From an uncultured delta proteobacterium (lineage in GTDB: Bacteria > RBG-13-61-14 > DRUE01), in NCBI GenBank assembly GCA_903930515.1, contig CAIYYW010000066.1, positions 1-26,733 on the forward strand: DNA of 26,733 nt. The letters are read 5' to 3'. This document shows, one piece after another, positions 3,448 to 21,853 of this stretch (its first letter is position 1; each line of letters opens with the position of its first letter). A program made the translations under genes and the position numbers. The notes under the pieces were generated by a model. It was not told the origin of the DNA, made no database searches, and saw only the letters and a list, made by a program, of their open reading frames with translations.

Positions 3448-3514
3448 AAAAGAAATCGGGTCAAGGGAAACGGTTTCCGGGTTTCCGGGGTTTTGCCGCC
3501 TTTCTGAATAAACA

Positions 3515-3543
3515 TTGACAATCCGGCCGGTTGCCGTTAAATT
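3515..3543 (+). promoter_or_regulatory. Promoter for the TPR-kinase operon
   Basis: A perfect TTGACA (3515-3520), a 17-nt spacer and TAAATT (3538-3543) are seen. The -10 ends 9 nt before the ATG at 3553. Transcription would start about 3 nt before the ATG, so the GAGGGGG that looks like a ribosome site may not be in the mRNA. Confidence 0.55.
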
Positions 3544-3552
3544 GAGGGGGAA

Positions 3553-5991
3553 ATGGATCAGGTGATAGAGCTTTTGAGGGACTATCTGGGCCCGGTCTGG
3601 GAGGCGGTGATCTCGGTGGTGGAAAATGTTCTGCTCTACTGGGACATCTACCTGGGCTGGTTGCCATACAGCCGGTATATCCTGCTGGGCCTGATCGCGC
3701 TGATCCTGCTGGCTCCGATAATTTTGTATCTGTGGTTAAAGCGGAAGCCTAAACCGCCGGGCAGGCTCCGGACCGGGAAAGACCTCAAGCGGGAGGCTAG
3801 TTGGTGCGAGAAGAACAAGGAATATGTCCGGGCCGGGGAGCTTTACGAGCAGATTGAAAAATATCAGAAAGCGATTGAGATGTATCAATTGGGGAGGAGT
3901 CCGGAGCGGGCGTCCCGGATTTATCTGGAGCATTTCAAGGATTTTGAAAAGGCGCTCTCGGTGTTATTGACGGAGGGGTTTTACGAGCAAGCCGGGATCT
4001 TGTGCGGACAACATGGGAAGTTTAATCAGGCCGGGGAATACCTGGAAAAGGCTAGGAAGCCCAGAAGCGCGGCGGAGATGTATGAGAAGGCGAAGGATTA
4101 CGGCAAGGCCGCGATTTTATACGAGCAAGGGGGTTTTACCGAGGAAGCCGCGGACAGTTACGGGTTAGCCGAAGATTATCAGAAAGGGGCGGCCCTGTAT
4201 GAGAAGGTCTGGAAGGAAAACCTGCGTCATCTGGGAACGGATGGTTCGCAAAAGTTCCGGGAGAAGTTCGACCAGATCGCCAAGAAGGCTGCGTTTTTTT
4301 ACAAGAAGTCCGGGGATTTGAAGAAGTCGGCGGAAATCCTGGACCAGAGCGGGATGTGCAGGTACGCGGCCGAGATGTATGTATTGGCGGGAGATTCTGC
4401 CAAGGCGGGCGAGGCATATTTGAAGATGCAGGAGGAGTTGAAGGCCGCGGAGATGTTTGAGCGGGTCGGGGATGCGCGCCGGGCCGCGGAGATCAAGGCC
4501 CATTACTACCAGAAGCAGGGACAGGCCAGCGAGGCGGTGAAATATTTTGAGCAGGCGGAGGATTATTTAACCGCGGCGGATATTTACGCCTCTTTGGGGG
4601 ACAAAAAGAAGGCCGCGGAGTTGTATCTCAAGGGTGGGGACAGCCGGATTGCCGCGGAGACTTTTTATGTCAGCGGGGAAAAGGGCAAGGCCGCGGAATC
4701 GTATGAGGTTAGCGGGAACCTGGAGATGGCGATCCAGGTTTACCAGGAGCTGGGGGATCAGGAGCAATTGAGCCGGCTGTACGAAAAGGCCGGCCGTTAT
4801 TACGAGGCCGCGGTATCGTATCAAAGCCGGGGCCAGATGGACCGGGCGCTGGGGCATCTCGCCAGGATCATTGAATCCGATCCGCATTACCAGGAAGGCT
4901 TGAAGCTGGCCGGGGATATTTTATTTGACCTGGCCAAATACGATCAGGCCTTTAATTATTACCGGACCTTGGCGTCCAAGAAGCCGTTTGATCCCGGCAA
5001 CCTCGACCTCTATTACCGGATGGCGCGGATCTACGAGCAGATGGGGCAGGTGAATTACGCCCAGGGTTTGTATCAGCGGATTTACGCGGTGGACCCGCAT
5101 TTTCAGGAGGTCACGCTCCGGCTCCAGGAAGTCAGCCGGAAGATGACCGGAGGGGCCGGGCCGGCCACTACCATCGCCGGGACCCCTCCCCCCGGGGCGC
5201 AGCAGGGATTCCGCTACCAGGTGGAGAAAGAGATCGGAAGGGGCGGGATGGGCGTGGTGTATCTGGCCAAGGACATCAATCTGGGACGGATGGTTGCGTA
5301 CAAGGTTTTGCCCCAGGAGATGAAAAATCATCCGGAAATTGTGGCCAACTTCTTCCGCGAAGCCAAAAGCCTGGCCCAGCTCAACCACCCCTACATCGTG
5401 TCCATTTATGACAGCGGAGAATATATGGGGAACTACTTCATCGTGATGGAGTTCGTGGAGGGAGAAGACCTCAAGTTGCTCGGGAAGCAGTCCCGCCGGG
5501 TTCCGCTCCGGATCGGGATGGAGATTTTCAAGCAACTGGCCCAGGCCCTTGATTACGCTCATTCCAAGAAGATCATCCACCGCGACATCAAGCCCTCCAA
5601 CATTATGTGGACGCAGAACCAGATCATCAAGATTATGGATTTCGGGCTGGCGAAGTTATTGGAGGAAGTAAAAACCGGGAGGACTTTGGTTAGCGGGACG
5701 CCCCTGTATATGTCCCCGGAGCAGACCTTGGGGAAGCCGCTGGATCATCGGACCGATATTTACAGCGCCGGCGCCACCATGTATGAGTTGTTCTGCGGCC
5801 AGCCGCCTTTCCTGGATGGCGACATCGGGTATCATCAGATCCATACCCCGCCCCGTCCGCCCAAGGAGCTTAACGCGGAAATACCGGACGAGCTGAGCGG
5901 GATCATTTTGAAATGCCTGGCCAAGGACCCGGATCAGCGCTACCAGGGCGCGCGCGAGTTGTATCTGGATTTAAAGGGGTTGGAGAGGTGA
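3553..5991 (+). CDS. Membrane-anchored 13-residue-repeat/TPR scaffold fused to a Ser/Thr protein kinase
   Basis: This is an 812-aa protein. Residues about 42-62 form one transmembrane helix followed by a basic stretch (LKRKPKP). Residues 94-224 and 246-431 hold 24 near-perfect tandem units of 13 residues with consensus A-A/G-x-x-Y-x-x-x-G-D-x-x-K. Residues about 432-532 look like ordinary TPRs. After a Gly/Pro linker, residues 555-812 are a complete Hanks-type kinase with a GRGGMGVVY loop, K584 in VAYK, HRDIKPSN (H676), DFG (D696) and SPEQ. The kinase should therefore be active and cytoplasmic, tethered by the N-terminus, the reverse of PknB. The repeats probably form an alpha-solenoid that binds proteins. 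It starts an operon, and the next gene begins 3 bp after its stop. The kinase substrate is unknown. Confidence 0.9.
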   Translation: MDQVIELLRDYLGPVWEAVISVVENVLLYWDIYLGWLPYSRYILLGLIALILLAPIILYLWLKRKPKPPGRLRTGKDLKREASWCEKNKEYVRAGELYEQIEKYQKAIEMYQLGRSPERASRIYLEHFKDFEKALSVLLTEGFYEQAGILCGQHGKFNQAGEYLEKARKPRSAAEMYEKAKDYGKAAILYEQGGFTEEAADSYGLAEDYQKGAALYEKVWKENLRHLGTDGSQKFREKFDQIAKKAAFFYKKSGDLKKSAEILDQSGMCRYAAEMYVLAGDSAKAGEAYLKMQEELKAAEMFERVGDARRAAEIKAHYYQKQGQASEAVKYFEQAEDYLTAADIYASLGDKKKAAELYLKGGDSRIAAETFYVSGEKGKAAESYEVSGNLEMAIQVYQELGDQEQLSRLYEKAGRYYEAAVSYQSRGQMDRALGHLARIIESDPHYQEGLKLAGDILFDLAKYDQAFNYYRTLASKKPFDPGNLDLYYRMARIYEQMGQVNYAQGLYQRIYAVDPHFQEVTLRLQEVSRKMTGGAGPATTIAGTPPPGAQQGFRYQVEKEIGRGGMGVVYLAKDINLGRMVAYKVLPQEMKNHPEIVANFFREAKSLAQLNHPYIVSIYDSGEYMGNYFIVMEFVEGEDLKLLGKQSRRVPLRIGMEIFKQLAQALDYAHSKKIIHRDIKPSNIMWTQNQIIKIMDFGLAKLLEEVKTGRTLVSGTPLYMSPEQTLGKPLDHRTDIYSAGATMYELFCGQPPFLDGDIGYHQIHTPPRPPKELNAEIPDELSGIILKCLAKDPDQRYQGARELYLDLKGLER

Positions 5992-5994
5992 GGG

Positions 5995-6642
5995 ATGATT
6001 TTCAAATATTTTGAGACCGGGCCGCTGATGGTGAACTGCTATATCGTGGGAGACGAGCAAAGCAAGGAAGCGGTGGTGATAGATCCGGGCGGGGATGTGG
6101 AGACGATCCTGGCGGAGCTGAAAGAGGACCACCTGAAATGCAAGATGATCATTGACACCCATTGTCATTTTGATCATATCGGCGGGAACAAGGGTTTGAA
6201 GGAAAAAACCGGCGCGCCCATATATATTCATCCGCTGGAAAAAGACCTGCTCGGTTCAATGAGCGAGATGGCGATGTATTTCGGGGCGGAAGCTGAAAAG
6301 TCTCCGCCCGCGGACGGGTTCCTGAACGAGGGAGACATCGTCAAGGTGGGCAAGGACCTGGAACTGCAGGTCCTGCATACGCCCGGACATTCGCCCGGAA
6401 GCATCACCCTCTGTCTCAAGGACCGCAACCTCGCGATCGTGGGAGATGTGCTGTTCCAGTTCAGCATCGGCCGGACCGACTTCCCGGGCGGGAGCCACCC
6501 GGAGTTGATCAAGAGCATCAAGACCAAGCTCTACCCGCTGGGGGACAACTGCGGGATATATCCCGGGCACGGACCTCCCACCACGATCAAGCAGGAAAAG
6601 AAACACAATCCCTTCTTGCAGGAAGGCGCGGAATTGGAGTAA
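5995..6642 (+). CDS. MBL-fold metallohydrolase, glyoxalase II-like
   Basis: This 215-aa single-domain enzyme has the binuclear metal site of the glyoxalase II group. The ligands are in THCHFDHIGG (HxHxDH), HTPGHSPGS, VGDVLF and YPGHGPPT. Family members hydrolyse thioesters such as S-lactoylglutathione or bacillithiol/CoA-linked analogues, and the short length without the C-terminal glyoxalase II domain fits the widespread YcbL-like group. The ATG lies 3 bp after the kinase stop, and its ribosome site (GAGGTGAGGG) overlaps the kinase gene, so the two are translationally coupled. The exact substrate cannot be told. Confidence 0.9.
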   Translation: MIFKYFETGPLMVNCYIVGDEQSKEAVVIDPGGDVETILAELKEDHLKCKMIIDTHCHFDHIGGNKGLKEKTGAPIYIHPLEKDLLGSMSEMAMYFGAEAEKSPPADGFLNEGDIVKVGKDLELQVLHTPGHSPGSITLCLKDRNLAIVGDVLFQFSIGRTDFPGGSHPELIKSIKTKLYPLGDNCGIYPGHGPPTTIKQEKKHNPFLQEGAELE

Positions 6643-6653
6643 GATAGAAGCAG

Positions 6654-7844
6654 ATGCTGAAGAACCGACAGGTATTATTGGGAGTGTCCGGCGGGATCGC
6701 CGCGTATAAGATTTGCGAGTTGGTGCGGTTGCTGATCCGGGCCGGGGCCAAGGTCCAGGTGGTGATGACCGAGAACGCCGCCCGGTTTGTGAACCCGCTG
6801 ACCTTTGAGACCCTCTCCCAGAAGCCGGTCCATATCCGGATGTTTGATTCGGGTACCGGCCCGCTCAAGCATATTGAGCTTGCGGACAAGGCCGAGTTGT
6901 TGGCGATCGCTCCCGCGACCGCGGACATCATCGGCAAGATCGCGAACGGGGTCGCCGACGACCTGCTTTCAACGCTCTATCTCGCGACCAAAGCCAAGGT
7001 CCTGGTCTGCCCGGCGATGAATGTGAATATGTATGAGCATCCCGCGGTTCAGGACAATTTGATCAATCTAAAAAGCCGGGGCGTGATGGTCCTGGAGCCG
7101 GATTCCGGAGAACTGGCCTGCGGTTGGGAAGGCAAGGGGAGACTGCCCGAGCCGGAAGTGATCCTGGAAGCCTGCGAATATGCGGTGGTGGAAAAGGATT
7201 TCAGCGGCAAAATGTTTATGATCACCGCCGGGCCGACCCGCGAGGCGATTGACCCGGTCCGATTCATTTCCAACCGCAGTTCCGGCAAAATGGGATACGC
7301 CCTCTCCCGCGCGGCCAAGGCCAGGGGAGCCGAAGTGATCCTGATCTCCGGACCCACCAACCTCCGGGCGCCCCTGGGGGTGAAGCTGGTCCGGGTGGAA
7401 AACGCGGAGCAGATGATGAAGGCTTGCGCCAAATATTCCCAGGACGCGGATGTGATCATCAAAGCCGCGGCCGTGGCCGATTTCACCCCCCGGATCAAGG
7501 CCGGGGCCAAGATCAAAAAGGAGAAAGGCGCGCCGGTGCTGGAGTTCACCAGAACCCCGGACATCCTGGGCGAGCTGGGGAGCAGGAAGCGCAAGGATCA
7601 GTTCCTGGTCGGGTTTGCCGCGGAGACCGAGGACCTGGTCAAGAACGCCCAGAAAAAATTGAAAGAGAAAAACCTGGATTTGATCGTGGCCAACGATGTC
7701 AGCAAAAAAGGGGCCGGGTTTGATGTGGACACCAATATCGCCACCATCCTGCCCCGAGCCGGCCGGACCGAATACCTGCCCAAACTCACCAAGCTGGAAC
7801 TGAGCTATAAAATCCTGGACAAAATTATAAAACTTTTTCCATAA
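6654..7844 (+). CDS. coaBC: Bifunctional phosphopantothenoylcysteine decarboxylase / phosphopantothenate-cysteine ligase
   Basis: This enzyme performs two steps of coenzyme A synthesis: ligation of cysteine to 4'-phosphopantothenate, then FMN-dependent decarboxylation. The N-terminal CoaC half shows GVSGGIAAYK, the active-site His in KHIELADKAELL, the PAMN motif (CPAMNVNMYEHP) and the Cys flap ACGWEGKGRL. The C-terminal CoaB half shows ITAGPTREAIDPVRFISNRS and KAAAVADFTP with its catalytic Lys. The length of 396 aa is normal. It is third in the kinase operon, 11 bp after the MBL gene. The ribosome site is weak (GGAG about 15 nt upstream), so translation probably depends on coupling. coaD lies in another operon at 25317-25805. 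Confidence 0.96.
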   Translation: MLKNRQVLLGVSGGIAAYKICELVRLLIRAGAKVQVVMTENAARFVNPLTFETLSQKPVHIRMFDSGTGPLKHIELADKAELLAIAPATADIIGKIANGVADDLLSTLYLATKAKVLVCPAMNVNMYEHPAVQDNLINLKSRGVMVLEPDSGELACGWEGKGRLPEPEVILEACEYAVVEKDFSGKMFMITAGPTREAIDPVRFISNRSSGKMGYALSRAAKARGAEVILISGPTNLRAPLGVKLVRVENAEQMMKACAKYSQDADVIIKAAAVADFTPRIKAGAKIKKEKGAPVLEFTRTPDILGELGSRKRKDQFLVGFAAETEDLVKNAQKKLKEKNLDLIVANDVSKKGAGFDVDTNIATILPRAGRTEYLPKLTKLELSYKILDKIIKLFP

Positions 7845-7908: not shown

Positions 7909-7937
7909 TTGATTCCATCCCCGCAATCAGATAAATT
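7909..7937 (+). promoter_or_regulatory. Candidate promoter for the GlpX-like phosphatase
   Basis: TTGATT (7909-7914), a 17-nt spacer and TAAATT (7932-7937) are seen. The predicted start site, near 7944, falls exactly at the first base of the first GC hairpin. The spacing and -10 match the promoters at 3515 and 3419. Confidence 0.4.
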
Positions 7938-7944
7938 CAAAAAG

Positions 7945-7990
7945 CGGCCGGGGGGCCGGCCGGGAAAAAATTCCGCGCCGGGCGCGGCGC
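7945..7990 (+). promoter_or_regulatory. Double GC-hairpin 5' leader of the GlpX-like gene
   Basis: Two perfect hairpins stand in tandem. The first is CGGCCGG-GGGG-CCGGCCG (7945-7962) and the second is GCGCCG-GGCG-CGGCGC (7975-7990), joined by an A-rich 12-nt linker. The second ends one base before the AAGGAG ribosome site at 7992-7997. Neither is followed by a T-run on this strand, so they are not plain terminators. On the minus strand the first is followed by CTTTTT and could stop antisense transcripts. Confidence 0.55.
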
Positions 7991-8004
7991 AAAGGAGAGC
8001 GAAG

Positions 8005-9681
8005 ATGAGCGACGAGTTGCGGCGGAACATTGCGGATTACCGGATCGGGTATCAGGGCCGGAGCGATGACCTTTCAATCAGCAGGAACCGGGTGTCCACC
8101 TTCAACCTCCGGCACCAGGAGGTGTTGGGATTTTATGGGCTGGAGCTGGTCAAGGGCACGGTCTTTATCATTGACGACCGCGTCAACGGGCGGTCCAACC
8201 TGGGGGTGTTCCGAGGCAAGCAGCTCCGCCAGGCCGTGATCCTGGCCTCGGCGCTTCCCGCGGCCGCGGTGGCTCTTCACGGCCGGGGCTCGCTCAACGC
8301 CGTCCCCAAGGAAAAACAAACCGCAGACCTGATCAAGGAATTGAAGCGGATGAACGACCGGATCGGCAGCCAGATTATGTCCGAGGTGATCCAGATCACC
8401 ACCGATACCTTTGATGTGGGCGAAGAGGTGGTGATTGAAAGCTCGATCACCGAGGGGGTCCGGGTCAAGCCGGGGGTGGAGCCGGGCGCCAACCCGACCA
8501 TCCCGGTGGGCGCGCTCTTCGGCAAGGACAAGGACCGCAATGTTTACGGACATTCGCTCGGGACCGAAGTGACCCGGCTCTCAATGGGATCGGATGTCAT
8601 TGACGGAACCACCAAGTCGGTCAAGGGGCTGCACTCGTCCCTGACTGCGCTCTTCATCAGCGAGTCCGGCGCCAAGCGGCATCTTCCGGACATTTATGTG
8701 GAACGCTGGACCGCGGGGGCGCCCTTCCCGGAATTCAATCCGCGCGACACCACCTTTCAGGAAGAAGCCGAGATCATCTCCAAGGCTTACGGGTTCAAAA
8801 GCCCGAAACAACTTTCCGCCTTTTTCCTGGATCGGCCCCGGCATCAGCCGGCAATGGCCGCGCTCAATTCCATCGGAGTGGCAACCCCCTTTGACCAGGA
8901 CGGAGACCTCTTCCCGGCCCTGGTGATGGGATTGCCGGGATTGGGATTCCCGGATGGGCGCGGCCTGAATTCCATGATCGGAGAGATCGGCGGAAGCGCG
9001 GAATGGGCCGTGGGAGCGCTGCCCCTGTTCTGGAGAGGCGGCCAGGCTTTGGGGATGCTCACCAGCCAGAGCTCGCTTACGCGCAAGGATTTGAAACCGG
9101 AGGAACTCTGGAAGGAGCGGTTCCACTACACCGAGGAAGAGTTGATGCTGATCCACGACGCTCGCTTTGAGCAGAAACCGTTCTTCACCATTGACGACAT
9201 CCTTGAGCGGCCCTATGCCGGGGGAGTCAGCGCATATACCGCGATCACGGACAATTATTTTTTGCCCCAACTGGAGGGCGTAACCATTGACCGGTCCCGG
9301 GGGACCTTTACCACCAACACCCTGATGATCAATTCCCTCGGAGTGATTGAGCATTGGCGCCTGACCTTTAAATGCCCGGAAGGGCTTGAGCGATGCGCCG
9401 ACCGGATGCATACCCCCAAGGCGCGCCTGGAGGGCCTGGACAAAAATCAAATTGAAAACCAGGTCAAAAAAATGGCCGATGACGACACCTCCCGCTTCCG
9501 GCTCAAATTCTTCTTCGTCAACGAGTATTACCCGGCCATCATCCATTCCGGAGGAAAAATGGTGGTCCTGGAAAAAACCCTGAAATCCTTGATTGACAAC
9601 GGAACCTTCCAGGAAAACGACCTTTATATCTCCCGAGCCATTATCAACGCCATCCCGCAATGGTTTACCGCCGCCGTGTAA
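8005..9681 (+). CDS. Enlarged, divergent GlpX-family (class II fructose-1,6-bisphosphatase-like) protein
   Basis: From the ATG at 8005, which has AAGGAG 7 nt upstream, the protein is 558 aa, against about 330 aa for GlpX. Several blocks follow the GlpX order. QTADLIKELKRMND (D108) resembles NTADGAAVNAMR. SDVIDGTTKSVKG (D197, D200, T202) resembles DPIEGT. LPDIYVERWTAG resembles APDMYMEK. LDRPRHQPAM resembles AKPRHDAV. GEIGGSAEW (E333) resembles GIGGAPEG. FTTNTLMIN resembles the TETLLI block. The GEGE metal loop is replaced by IESSIT, and there are about 90 extra N-terminal residues, extra loops and a longer C-terminus. Homology is fairly sure; activity on fructose 1,6-bisphosphate is not. The gene appears to stand alone. 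A phosphofructokinase gene lies about 6.4 kb away. Confidence 0.7.
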   Translation: MSDELRRNIADYRIGYQGRSDDLSISRNRVSTFNLRHQEVLGFYGLELVKGTVFIIDDRVNGRSNLGVFRGKQLRQAVILASALPAAAVALHGRGSLNAVPKEKQTADLIKELKRMNDRIGSQIMSEVIQITTDTFDVGEEVVIESSITEGVRVKPGVEPGANPTIPVGALFGKDKDRNVYGHSLGTEVTRLSMGSDVIDGTTKSVKGLHSSLTALFISESGAKRHLPDIYVERWTAGAPFPEFNPRDTTFQEEAEIISKAYGFKSPKQLSAFFLDRPRHQPAMAALNSIGVATPFDQDGDLFPALVMGLPGLGFPDGRGLNSMIGEIGGSAEWAVGALPLFWRGGQALGMLTSQSSLTRKDLKPEELWKERFHYTEEELMLIHDARFEQKPFFTIDDILERPYAGGVSAYTAITDNYFLPQLEGVTIDRSRGTFTTNTLMINSLGVIEHWRLTFKCPEGLERCADRMHTPKARLEGLDKNQIENQVKKMADDDTSRFRLKFFFVNEYYPAIIHSGGKMVVLEKTLKSLIDNGTFQENDLYISRAIINAIPQWFTAAV

Positions 9682-20209: not shown

Positions 20210-21853
20210 ATGACCGAACCCAACCAAGCGCAAGGCCTCCAGGGCGGAAGCCTGCAGGAGATTCCATTCGGGAAAGTTTTTTTCCGGCTCGCGCGCGAGA
20301 AAAAAACCGGGTACCTGGACATCCTGAGCCAGGCGCCCCCGGCGGGGAAGGTTTTGAAGCGGATTATGATCGCGTCGGGCGGTAGCTTTTATGTCCAGGG
20401 AGGCAACCTGGAGGAGACCATGGCTCGGATTTTGGTCACGCGCGGCAAATTGACCGAGCAGAAATATGAGGAGCTGAAAACGACGGTGGGCGGGGATTAC
20501 CAGAAGCTGGAGCAGGCGGCGCAGGCGGCGGCGAATTTGGCCGGGCAGGATTTGAGCGAGTTGTATCAGCATCAGACCGAGCTCAAGATCATCAACTGCT
20601 TCGCCCTGATCCGGGGGTATTACCAGTTCCGGGAAGTGGATTTGAACGAGCTTAACCAGCATCCGCTGATCTCTCTCGGCGCGGAGAAGCTGCTATTATC
20701 CGGGGTCAAGGCCCACTATCCCAAAGCGCGGATTGATAATGAGTTCGCGGGGATCGAGGGGAAGCATTTCCAGGTCAACCCGAAGCTGATTGACCAGGCC
20801 GTCCAGTTCGGGTTCGGGCCCAAGGAAGTGAGATGGATGCATCAATTGGGAAAGGAGTTTGCCTTTGCCGCCGGTTTAAGGCTCTCGCCCCTCAAGCCCG
20901 AGCCGGCGATACAGGTCTTGCTCGCGCTTTACCTTGCCGGATATTTCGAGCTGCCGGAGGCGGAGGAAAATTTTCCCCTGGGAAGTGTTTACGGGGAAAG
21001 CGATACGGTGAAAAAAATCCGGCAGGCCGGGGAAAAGAAAATAGAGGACAAAAAATCCGCGCAAGAAAAGAAGGCGGCGCCTCCGCCGGAGGATCCGAAA
21101 CTTCCGATTGAGAAAATGCTGGATCAGGAGATGGACGATCGGCAGTTGGTGAAGAAGATTGAAGAGATGCTGGACCTGGTGAGCAAAAAGGAAACCACCT
21201 TTTTGGAAATTATGGGAGTGGATGAGCGGGCTTCCCCGGCGCAGATCAAGAAGATTTATTTCAAGATGGCGAAAATATTTCACCCGGACGCCAAGCCGGA
21301 CCTGTATCAGGGGGATCTTCGGGACAAGGTGGAAGACCTGTTCACCAGGATCAGCGAGGCCTATAGCACCCTGACCGAGCCGGAGTTGCGAAAGGCCTAC
21401 CTGGAACGGATCAAGAGCACGGTTACGGACGAGGAGATGGAGAAGGCGAACCGGGCGCTCCAGGCGGAGATGGAATTCCAGAAGGCGATGATTTCAATCC
21501 GGAGGGGCGCGTTCCGCGAGGCCCAGGCGTCTCTGGAGACCGCGGCGGATTTGGTTCCGGACGAGCCGGAATATAAATTGCACCTGGGCTATTGCCTGTT
21601 CAAGAGCGAAGGAGCCGGCGCGGCGAACAAGGCGATCAAGATGATTGAAGAGGGCTTGAAGCAGAGGCCCCAGGTGTCGGAGGGATGGTTTTATCTGGGC
21701 GTGATCAACCGGGTGCAGGGGAACCTGGGCGAGGCCCGATCCGCTTTCCAGAAAACCCTGGAGCTGGACAAGCATAGCCAGGAGGCGCAACGGGAGCTGC
21801 GCGTGATTGAAATGAAAATCGCCGAAGGCGGCAAGGGCGGCAGGAAAAGATAA
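20210..21853 (+). CDS. DUF4388 / J-domain / TPR multidomain protein
   Basis: This is a 547-aa cytoplasmic protein with no signal or membrane helix. Residues about 10-90 resemble the DUF4388 (PATAN-like) domain, with FGKVFFRLAREKKTGYLDI and SFYVQGGNLEETMARIL. Residues about 265-310 are a Lys/Glu/Pro-rich linker. Residues 331-400 are a J domain with the HPD motif at 358-360, so it should stimulate an Hsp70 partner. The C-terminal part (about 420-535) contains TPR-like helices. DUF4388 proteins are often linked to two-component or motility signalling. It may bring DnaK to a signalling complex, but this is inference. The next gene starts directly after its stop codon. Confidence 0.85.
   Translation: MTEPNQAQGLQGGSLQEIPFGKVFFRLAREKKTGYLDILSQAPPAGKVLKRIMIASGGSFYVQGGNLEETMARILVTRGKLTEQKYEELKTTVGGDYQKLEQAAQAAANLAGQDLSELYQHQTELKIINCFALIRGYYQFREVDLNELNQHPLISLGAEKLLLSGVKAHYPKARIDNEFAGIEGKHFQVNPKLIDQAVQFGFGPKEVRWMHQLGKEFAFAAGLRLSPLKPEPAIQVLLALYLAGYFELPEAEENFPLGSVYGESDTVKKIRQAGEKKIEDKKSAQEKKAAPPPEDPKLPIEKMLDQEMDDRQLVKKIEEMLDLVSKKETTFLEIMGVDERASPAQIKKIYFKMAKIFHPDAKPDLYQGDLRDKVEDLFTRISEAYSTLTEPELRKAYLERIKSTVTDEEMEKANRALQAEMEFQKAMISIRRGAFREAQASLETAADLVPDEPEYKLHLGYCLFKSEGAGAANKAIKMIEEGLKQRPQVSEGWFYLGVINRVQGNLGEARSAFQKTLELDKHSQEAQRELRVIEMKIAEGGKGGRKR

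Follow-up and report, generated by a model that had tools for sequence, protein, structure and literature searches.

Layout of the locus

The window, a stretch of 26 733 nucleotides, contains at 3553..5991 (+) a gene for a protein of 812 aa, recognised from the ORF list and from homologues with the same layout. A transmembrane helix (residues 40-63; 3670..3741, +) is indicated by a hydropathy of up to 2.75 and by a helix over the same residues in the AlphaFold2 model; it is directly followed by a basic stretch, with five K/R and no D/E in residues 64-75 by charge count. The next part of the protein is a repeat array, which as a whole occupies residues about 75-436. After a preceding helix (residues 75-87), a first block of ten 13-residue units (residues 91-224; 3823..4224, +) is separated by a break with one long helix in the model (residues 233-253; 4225..4311, +) from a second block of fourteen units with one step of 17 (residues 256-436; 4318..4860, +). 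Both blocks were delimited by autocorrelation and by the AlphaFold2 helices.

Ordinary TPR-length helices follow (residues 446-531; 4888..5145, +), as judged from Pfam TPR_14/TPR_2 matches, helix lengths of 12-16 residues and a fold match to designed TPRs (VIA-align; Z about 14, rmsd 2.4-2.8). A low-confidence linker (residues 533-552; 5149..5208, +; pLDDT under 50) connects these TPRs to a Ser/Thr protein kinase domain (residues 555-808; 5215..5976, +), assigned by PF00069, by its motifs and by fold matches. The earlier note had described an array that is continued by normal TPRs and a complete kinase, and Pfam, the AlphaFold2 helices and the kinase motifs bear this out.

Periodicity and predicted structure of the array

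Autocorrelation was calculated for residues 94-431, which correspond exactly to window positions 3832-4845. Identity at lag 13 was 0.228, with further peaks at lags 26 (0.205), 39 (0.191) and 52; 1000 shuffles of the same residues gave a mean lag-13 value of 0.079, a top lag-13 value of 0.129 and a top value at any lag of 0.152. The TPR period is absent from these residues, lag 34 (0.066) lying below the shuffled lag-13 mean. The family consensus of the unit, [YF]-x-K-A-A-E-L-Y-E-K-A-G-D, is that of the earlier note, offset by three. Odd and even units were equally similar to one another in the window protein (0.235 vs 0.235; p 0.45-0.47), and the same test on family profiles gave p 0.20. Since the sequence does not alternate, the repeat unit is a single helix and not a TPR hairpin; a 26-residue hairpin as the sequence repeat was therefore unsupported, even though one family member (L044) is about two units shorter. 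Tandem repeats at the DNA level were sought in 3500-6000 and none was found, so that the array is an old repeat at the protein level.

Two AlphaFold2 runs, one of the full protein (9 sequences) and one of residues 70-536 (18 sequences), gave models that agree; both alignments are shallow. One 10-residue helix and a 3-residue turn are predicted for each unit with high model confidence, the pLDDT of the array being about 84-97 and the block means mostly over 90 (lowest near the break, at about 84 in the full protein and 89 for residues 70-536). The model has helices at residues 91, 104, 117, 131, 144, 157, 170, 183, 196 and 209 in block 1, and at 256, 269, 282, 295, 308, 325, 338, 351, 364, 377, 390, 403, 416 and 429 in block 2. 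The count of 24 units made by eye in the earlier note, ten with one of 14 residues, a break and then fourteen with one of 17, is thereby reproduced, as is its distinction of 13-residue units from 34-residue TPRs.

A reading of the array as an ordinary, degenerate TPR region with accidental 13-residue spacing was weighed against these data. The Pfam TPR_7 and TPR_2 models do match the protein, TPR_7 with 36.4 bits against a cut-off of 27.9, a score to which the real TPRs at 446-531 may add; its best stretch lies within the array (residues 94-113) and spans only profile positions 5-24 of 36. Each 34-residue repeat of consensus TPR also contains one good 13-residue stretch, YDEAIEYYQKALE, which scores 19.4 on the unit matrix. 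Against this reading stand the background value at lag 34, the 10-residue helices at 13-residue steps in the model, where ordinary TPR pairs are not what is predicted, and the lag-34 TPR proteins in the loci examined, which yield no long 13-residue chains. Accidental spacing is accordingly considered very improbable.

In structure searches, the whole model returned kinases from the PDB. The best Foldseek match of the array model was the IFT-A complex (E 8.6e-10, but TMq 0.29). VIA-align gave no close full-length superposition of the candidate solved structures on the array: rows covering most of it have a large rmsd, and the C-terminal TPRs occupy much of the list.

Kinase domain and membrane topology

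PF00069 matches residues 555-798 (E 3.5e-57), the catalytic motifs GRGGMG (562), K584, HRD (676), DFG (696) and SPE (721) are present, and the fold matches PknB/PknA in the structure search; judged by motifs and fold, the Ser/Thr kinase is apparently intact. The PASTA-kinase model NF033483 scored 313 bits, where its cut-off is 450, in a match confined to the kinase domain. Assignment to a defence system was rejected, as the PADLOC hits (PD-T4-6, mad6) reach only the kinase domain.

A kinase needs ATP, and positively charged residues flanking a membrane helix tend to lie inside the cell. On this basis, the single membrane helix and the charge pattern place array and kinase together on the cytoplasmic side in the prediction, because nothing between the transmembrane helix and the kinase crosses the membrane. 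An extracellular sensor was ruled out, there being no membrane segment between array and kinase.

The array-kinase family

Relatives were collected by a homologue search and by scanning genome contigs. The same kinase layout was found in the order to which the window belongs, in Nitrospirota including Candidatus Manganitrophus, and in records titled Acidobacteria, Candidatus Aminicenantes and Deltaproteobacteria. An array-only profile matched 35 of 290 genomes at E 1e-10 or better, and homologues beside kinases, which the earlier note had named as a check, were found in many genomes and in several phyla. The array aligns colinearly over 18 sequences (25-69% identity), and its length differs by few residues in most of them. 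In all 31 distinct array kinases it precedes the kinase, and HRD and DFG are present; some kinase-fused members are without a membrane helix.

By chaining of 13-residue units, 24 of the 31 distinct kinase-fused proteins have 25-29 units and kinase-free arrays about 9-51. The unit matrix was derived from the array-kinase family, so the chain scores of its members are partly circular, which the autocorrelation is not; chaining may in addition place units inside the break, giving 27 units for the window array where 24 are counted by eye. The variation in unit number that the earlier note had named as a sign of a distinct repeat class is seen among kinase-free proteins, whereas beside kinases the number is nearly fixed.

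In a tree of kinase domains (n=53), the array label changes 3 times, as against 13.3 in shuffles, and 0 of 500 shuffles were as low; the array kinases thus form clusters in the tree. A single origin of all array kinases was neither established nor rejected (AU p 0.178, or 0.248 when two outliers are left out). No earlier description of this kinase type was found in the open-licence literature, which is a limited sample. A second array kinase of the genome is split over two frames near its N-terminal part (G000:C11:2152-4543, minus strand; L134); the copy in a genus-mate is open (G001:C706, 818 aa), and the split may reflect genuine damage to the gene or a fault in the assembly.

Gene neighbourhood

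A gene for a metallo-beta-lactamase-fold (MBL) hydrolase (5995..6642, +; Pfam) begins 3 bases after the kinase stop, and the third gene in the row (6654..7844, +), which we take from its sequence, and not from a family search, to be coaBC-like, keeps its similarity in loci L038 and L039. The order kinase-MBL-coaBC is confined to the closest lineage (L038, L039). As no neighbour is constant across phyla, a fixed partner deduced from gene order was ruled out. In both Manganitrophus loci an FHA gene lies directly upstream of the array kinase (L041:2455-3720, L045:1966-3321), its FHA sequence following a separate N-terminal region; FHA proteins are also encoded in the genome of the window.

One subclade of array kinases sits in a row after ruv genes (L040:1564-6256, L134:4547-8635). 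At L040 the kinase ORF starts at the end of ruvB, and at L134 the kinase is preceded by ruvA-, ruvB- and queH-like genes; these names were assigned by reading the sequences and are presumptive. Elsewhere in the window, 7909-9681 (+) encodes 590 aa with a GlpX-type fructose-bisphosphatase match (residues 214-476), far longer than the family model and hence an unusual variant, and 20210-21853 (+) encodes a DUF4388-DnaJ-TPR protein with ordinary TPRs.

Proposed role

The protein is best read as a membrane-anchored, PknB-like kinase with a cytoplasmic single-helix solenoid that acts as a protein-binding scaffold, a reading to which we give a probability of about 60 %, with binding, partners and regulation all putative. 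A Hanks-type (PknB-like) Ser/Thr kinase would be anchored in the membrane by a helix joined to it through a long alpha-solenoid of about 24-27 shortened, TPR-like, single-helix 13-residue units, ending in ordinary TPRs beside the kinase. Anchored on the cytoplasmic face of the membrane, the solenoid might recruit substrate or partner proteins, with FHA-domain proteins as candidates, and could set the reach of the kinase. Of the two roles suggested in the earlier note, scaffold and sensor, the scaffold is the likelier and the sensor the less likely, because there is a single transmembrane helix and both array and kinase are predicted on its cytoplasmic side; a scaffold that recruits substrates at the membrane is preferred because the array, within the cytoplasm, links the membrane to the kinase. 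The FHA genes upstream of the Manganitrophus kinases, the FHA proteins of the window's genome and the protein binding by TPR-like solenoids of IFT-A (PMC10066299) count for the scaffold. The varying gene neighbourhood across phyla and the members without a membrane helix count against it, as do the shallow alignments behind the model, the lack of a close superposition of any candidate solved structure along the array, and the surface of the array, on which the 18-row alignment showed only moderate conservation and no clear binding patch.

The array might instead regulate its own kinase, keeping it masked until mechanical strain or a ligand in the cytoplasm sets it free. In every kinase-fused member found, array and TPRs immediately precede the kinase, which would fit, as would the modulation of PknS (PMC13147305) and of PknG (as described in PMC11032199) by accessory TPR regions. 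The linker at 533-552 is, however, of low confidence, and the full model (pTM 0.42) predicts no docked pose of the array on the kinase, which leaves intramolecular regulation an unlikely alternative to the scaffold.

Comparison with known repeats and kinases

When the array-only profile was compared with solved structures, IFT172 (E 1e-18), IFT144 (E 6.4e-17), WDR19, IFT140 and IFT122 came first, followed by designed TPRs and alpha-SNAP; the IFT144/WDR19, IFT172 and IFT140 solenoids (PDB 8bda, 8bd7, 8bbf) are its best profile matches. IFT144 has the same 13-residue unit and consensus, for example LTEAAEMYERAGQ-FERAASIYIQTKN, for which the unit matrix gives 24.6 and 18.0; the Tetrahymena values are 25.1 and 18.7, and those of human WDR19 17.6 and 19.2. 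The strong units of IFT144 occur in pairs in the matched stretches, whereas those of the window array form runs of 10 and 14. IFT proteins are moreover eukaryotic, serve ciliary transport and are without a kinase, and no close superposition over the length of the superhelix was found; proteins of the IFT/coatomer type have one or more beta-propellers before the solenoid, where the window protein has, by Pfam, no propeller but a transmembrane helix. The likeness is one of repeat units, and it may have arisen by convergence. The stretches concerned are named TPR-like domains in the IFT-A paper, in which the TPR-like solenoids of IFT-A bind proteins (PMC10066299).

Because the closest solved sequence relatives, the IFT172, IFT144 and IFT140 solenoids, form trains, the solenoid could be an assembly device: arrays would pack together as in coats or IFT trains, and the kinases, gathered in this way at the membrane, would be activated in trans. 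A near-constant length across phyla fits such a structural part; with the resemblance confined to the repeat unit and possibly convergent, assembly is judged improbable, and the membrane-held scaffold remains the preferred reading.

The array shares the A/Y/G-D motif with canonical TPRs (Pfam TPR clan), whose unit is 34 residues in two helices, in contrast to the 13-residue one-helix unit without a lag-34 signal described here. It is not a canonical TPR, because the 34-residue period and the two distinct helices per unit are both lacking. Pfam TPR_7, SNAP, IFT and clathrin models all match it, and Clathrin heavy-chain repeat and alpha-SNAP matches (Pfam Clathrin, SNAP) occur in 18 of 18 family members; the latter cover pieces of the array only, and nothing points to a coat or SNARE function. 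The array is a short-helix variant of TPR-like solenoids, neither an isolated oddity nor a wholly new fold; with a good 13-residue stretch in each canonical TPR, its unit resembles a TPR helix that has been cut short. Of the distinct repeat class proposed in the earlier note, the difference from canonical TPRs stands, and its isolation from known families does not.

Kinase-free proteins also contain the 13-residue unit: about 51 units are combined with DnaJ and TPRs in L095, and the unit is found with UvrD helicase in L050 and L099 and with a cyclic-nucleotide-binding domain in L054. A single bacterial frame (L098:1189-3423) encodes about 21 units and then a beta-propeller, the opposite of the order in which these parts stand in an IFT/coatomer subunit. 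Archaeal proteins of ~350 aa, mostly from Thermococcus and relatives (L052-L069), contain 9-15 units with an additional 38-residue period; no partner domain was seen in them. Tentatively, and with more doubt than confidence, the unit could form a distinct, widespread prokaryotic repeat class (~9-51 units; kinase, helicase, chaperone and propeller fusions), equivalent to the short-helix stretches of IFT/coatomer solenoids and perhaps their origin.

The alpha-solenoid repeats TPR, HEAT, ARM and PPR have units of two or more helices. A solenoid that repeats one 10-residue helix and builds both of its layers from one sequence has a very simple form and is a natural design template. That the array stays nearly constant in length in a kinase family found in several phyla implies a particular structural task. 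Since IFT solenoids resemble the array, the question of where these eukaryotic parts came from can be tested in prokaryotes.

Among kinases, the window protein has the fold of the Hanks-type Ser/Thr kinases, with their G-loop, Lys (584), HRD (676) and DFG (696). It ends after the kinase, where PASTA kinases (PknB/Stk1) continue into extracellular PASTA domains. PknS, PknG and the Planctomycetota TPR kinases share with it a PknB-like kinase domain combined with helical repeats; PknS and most Planctomycetota kinases, however, carry periplasmic TPRs C-terminal to the kinase (PMC13147305, PMC11032199), whereas the array of the window protein precedes the kinase and is predicted to be cytoplasmic.
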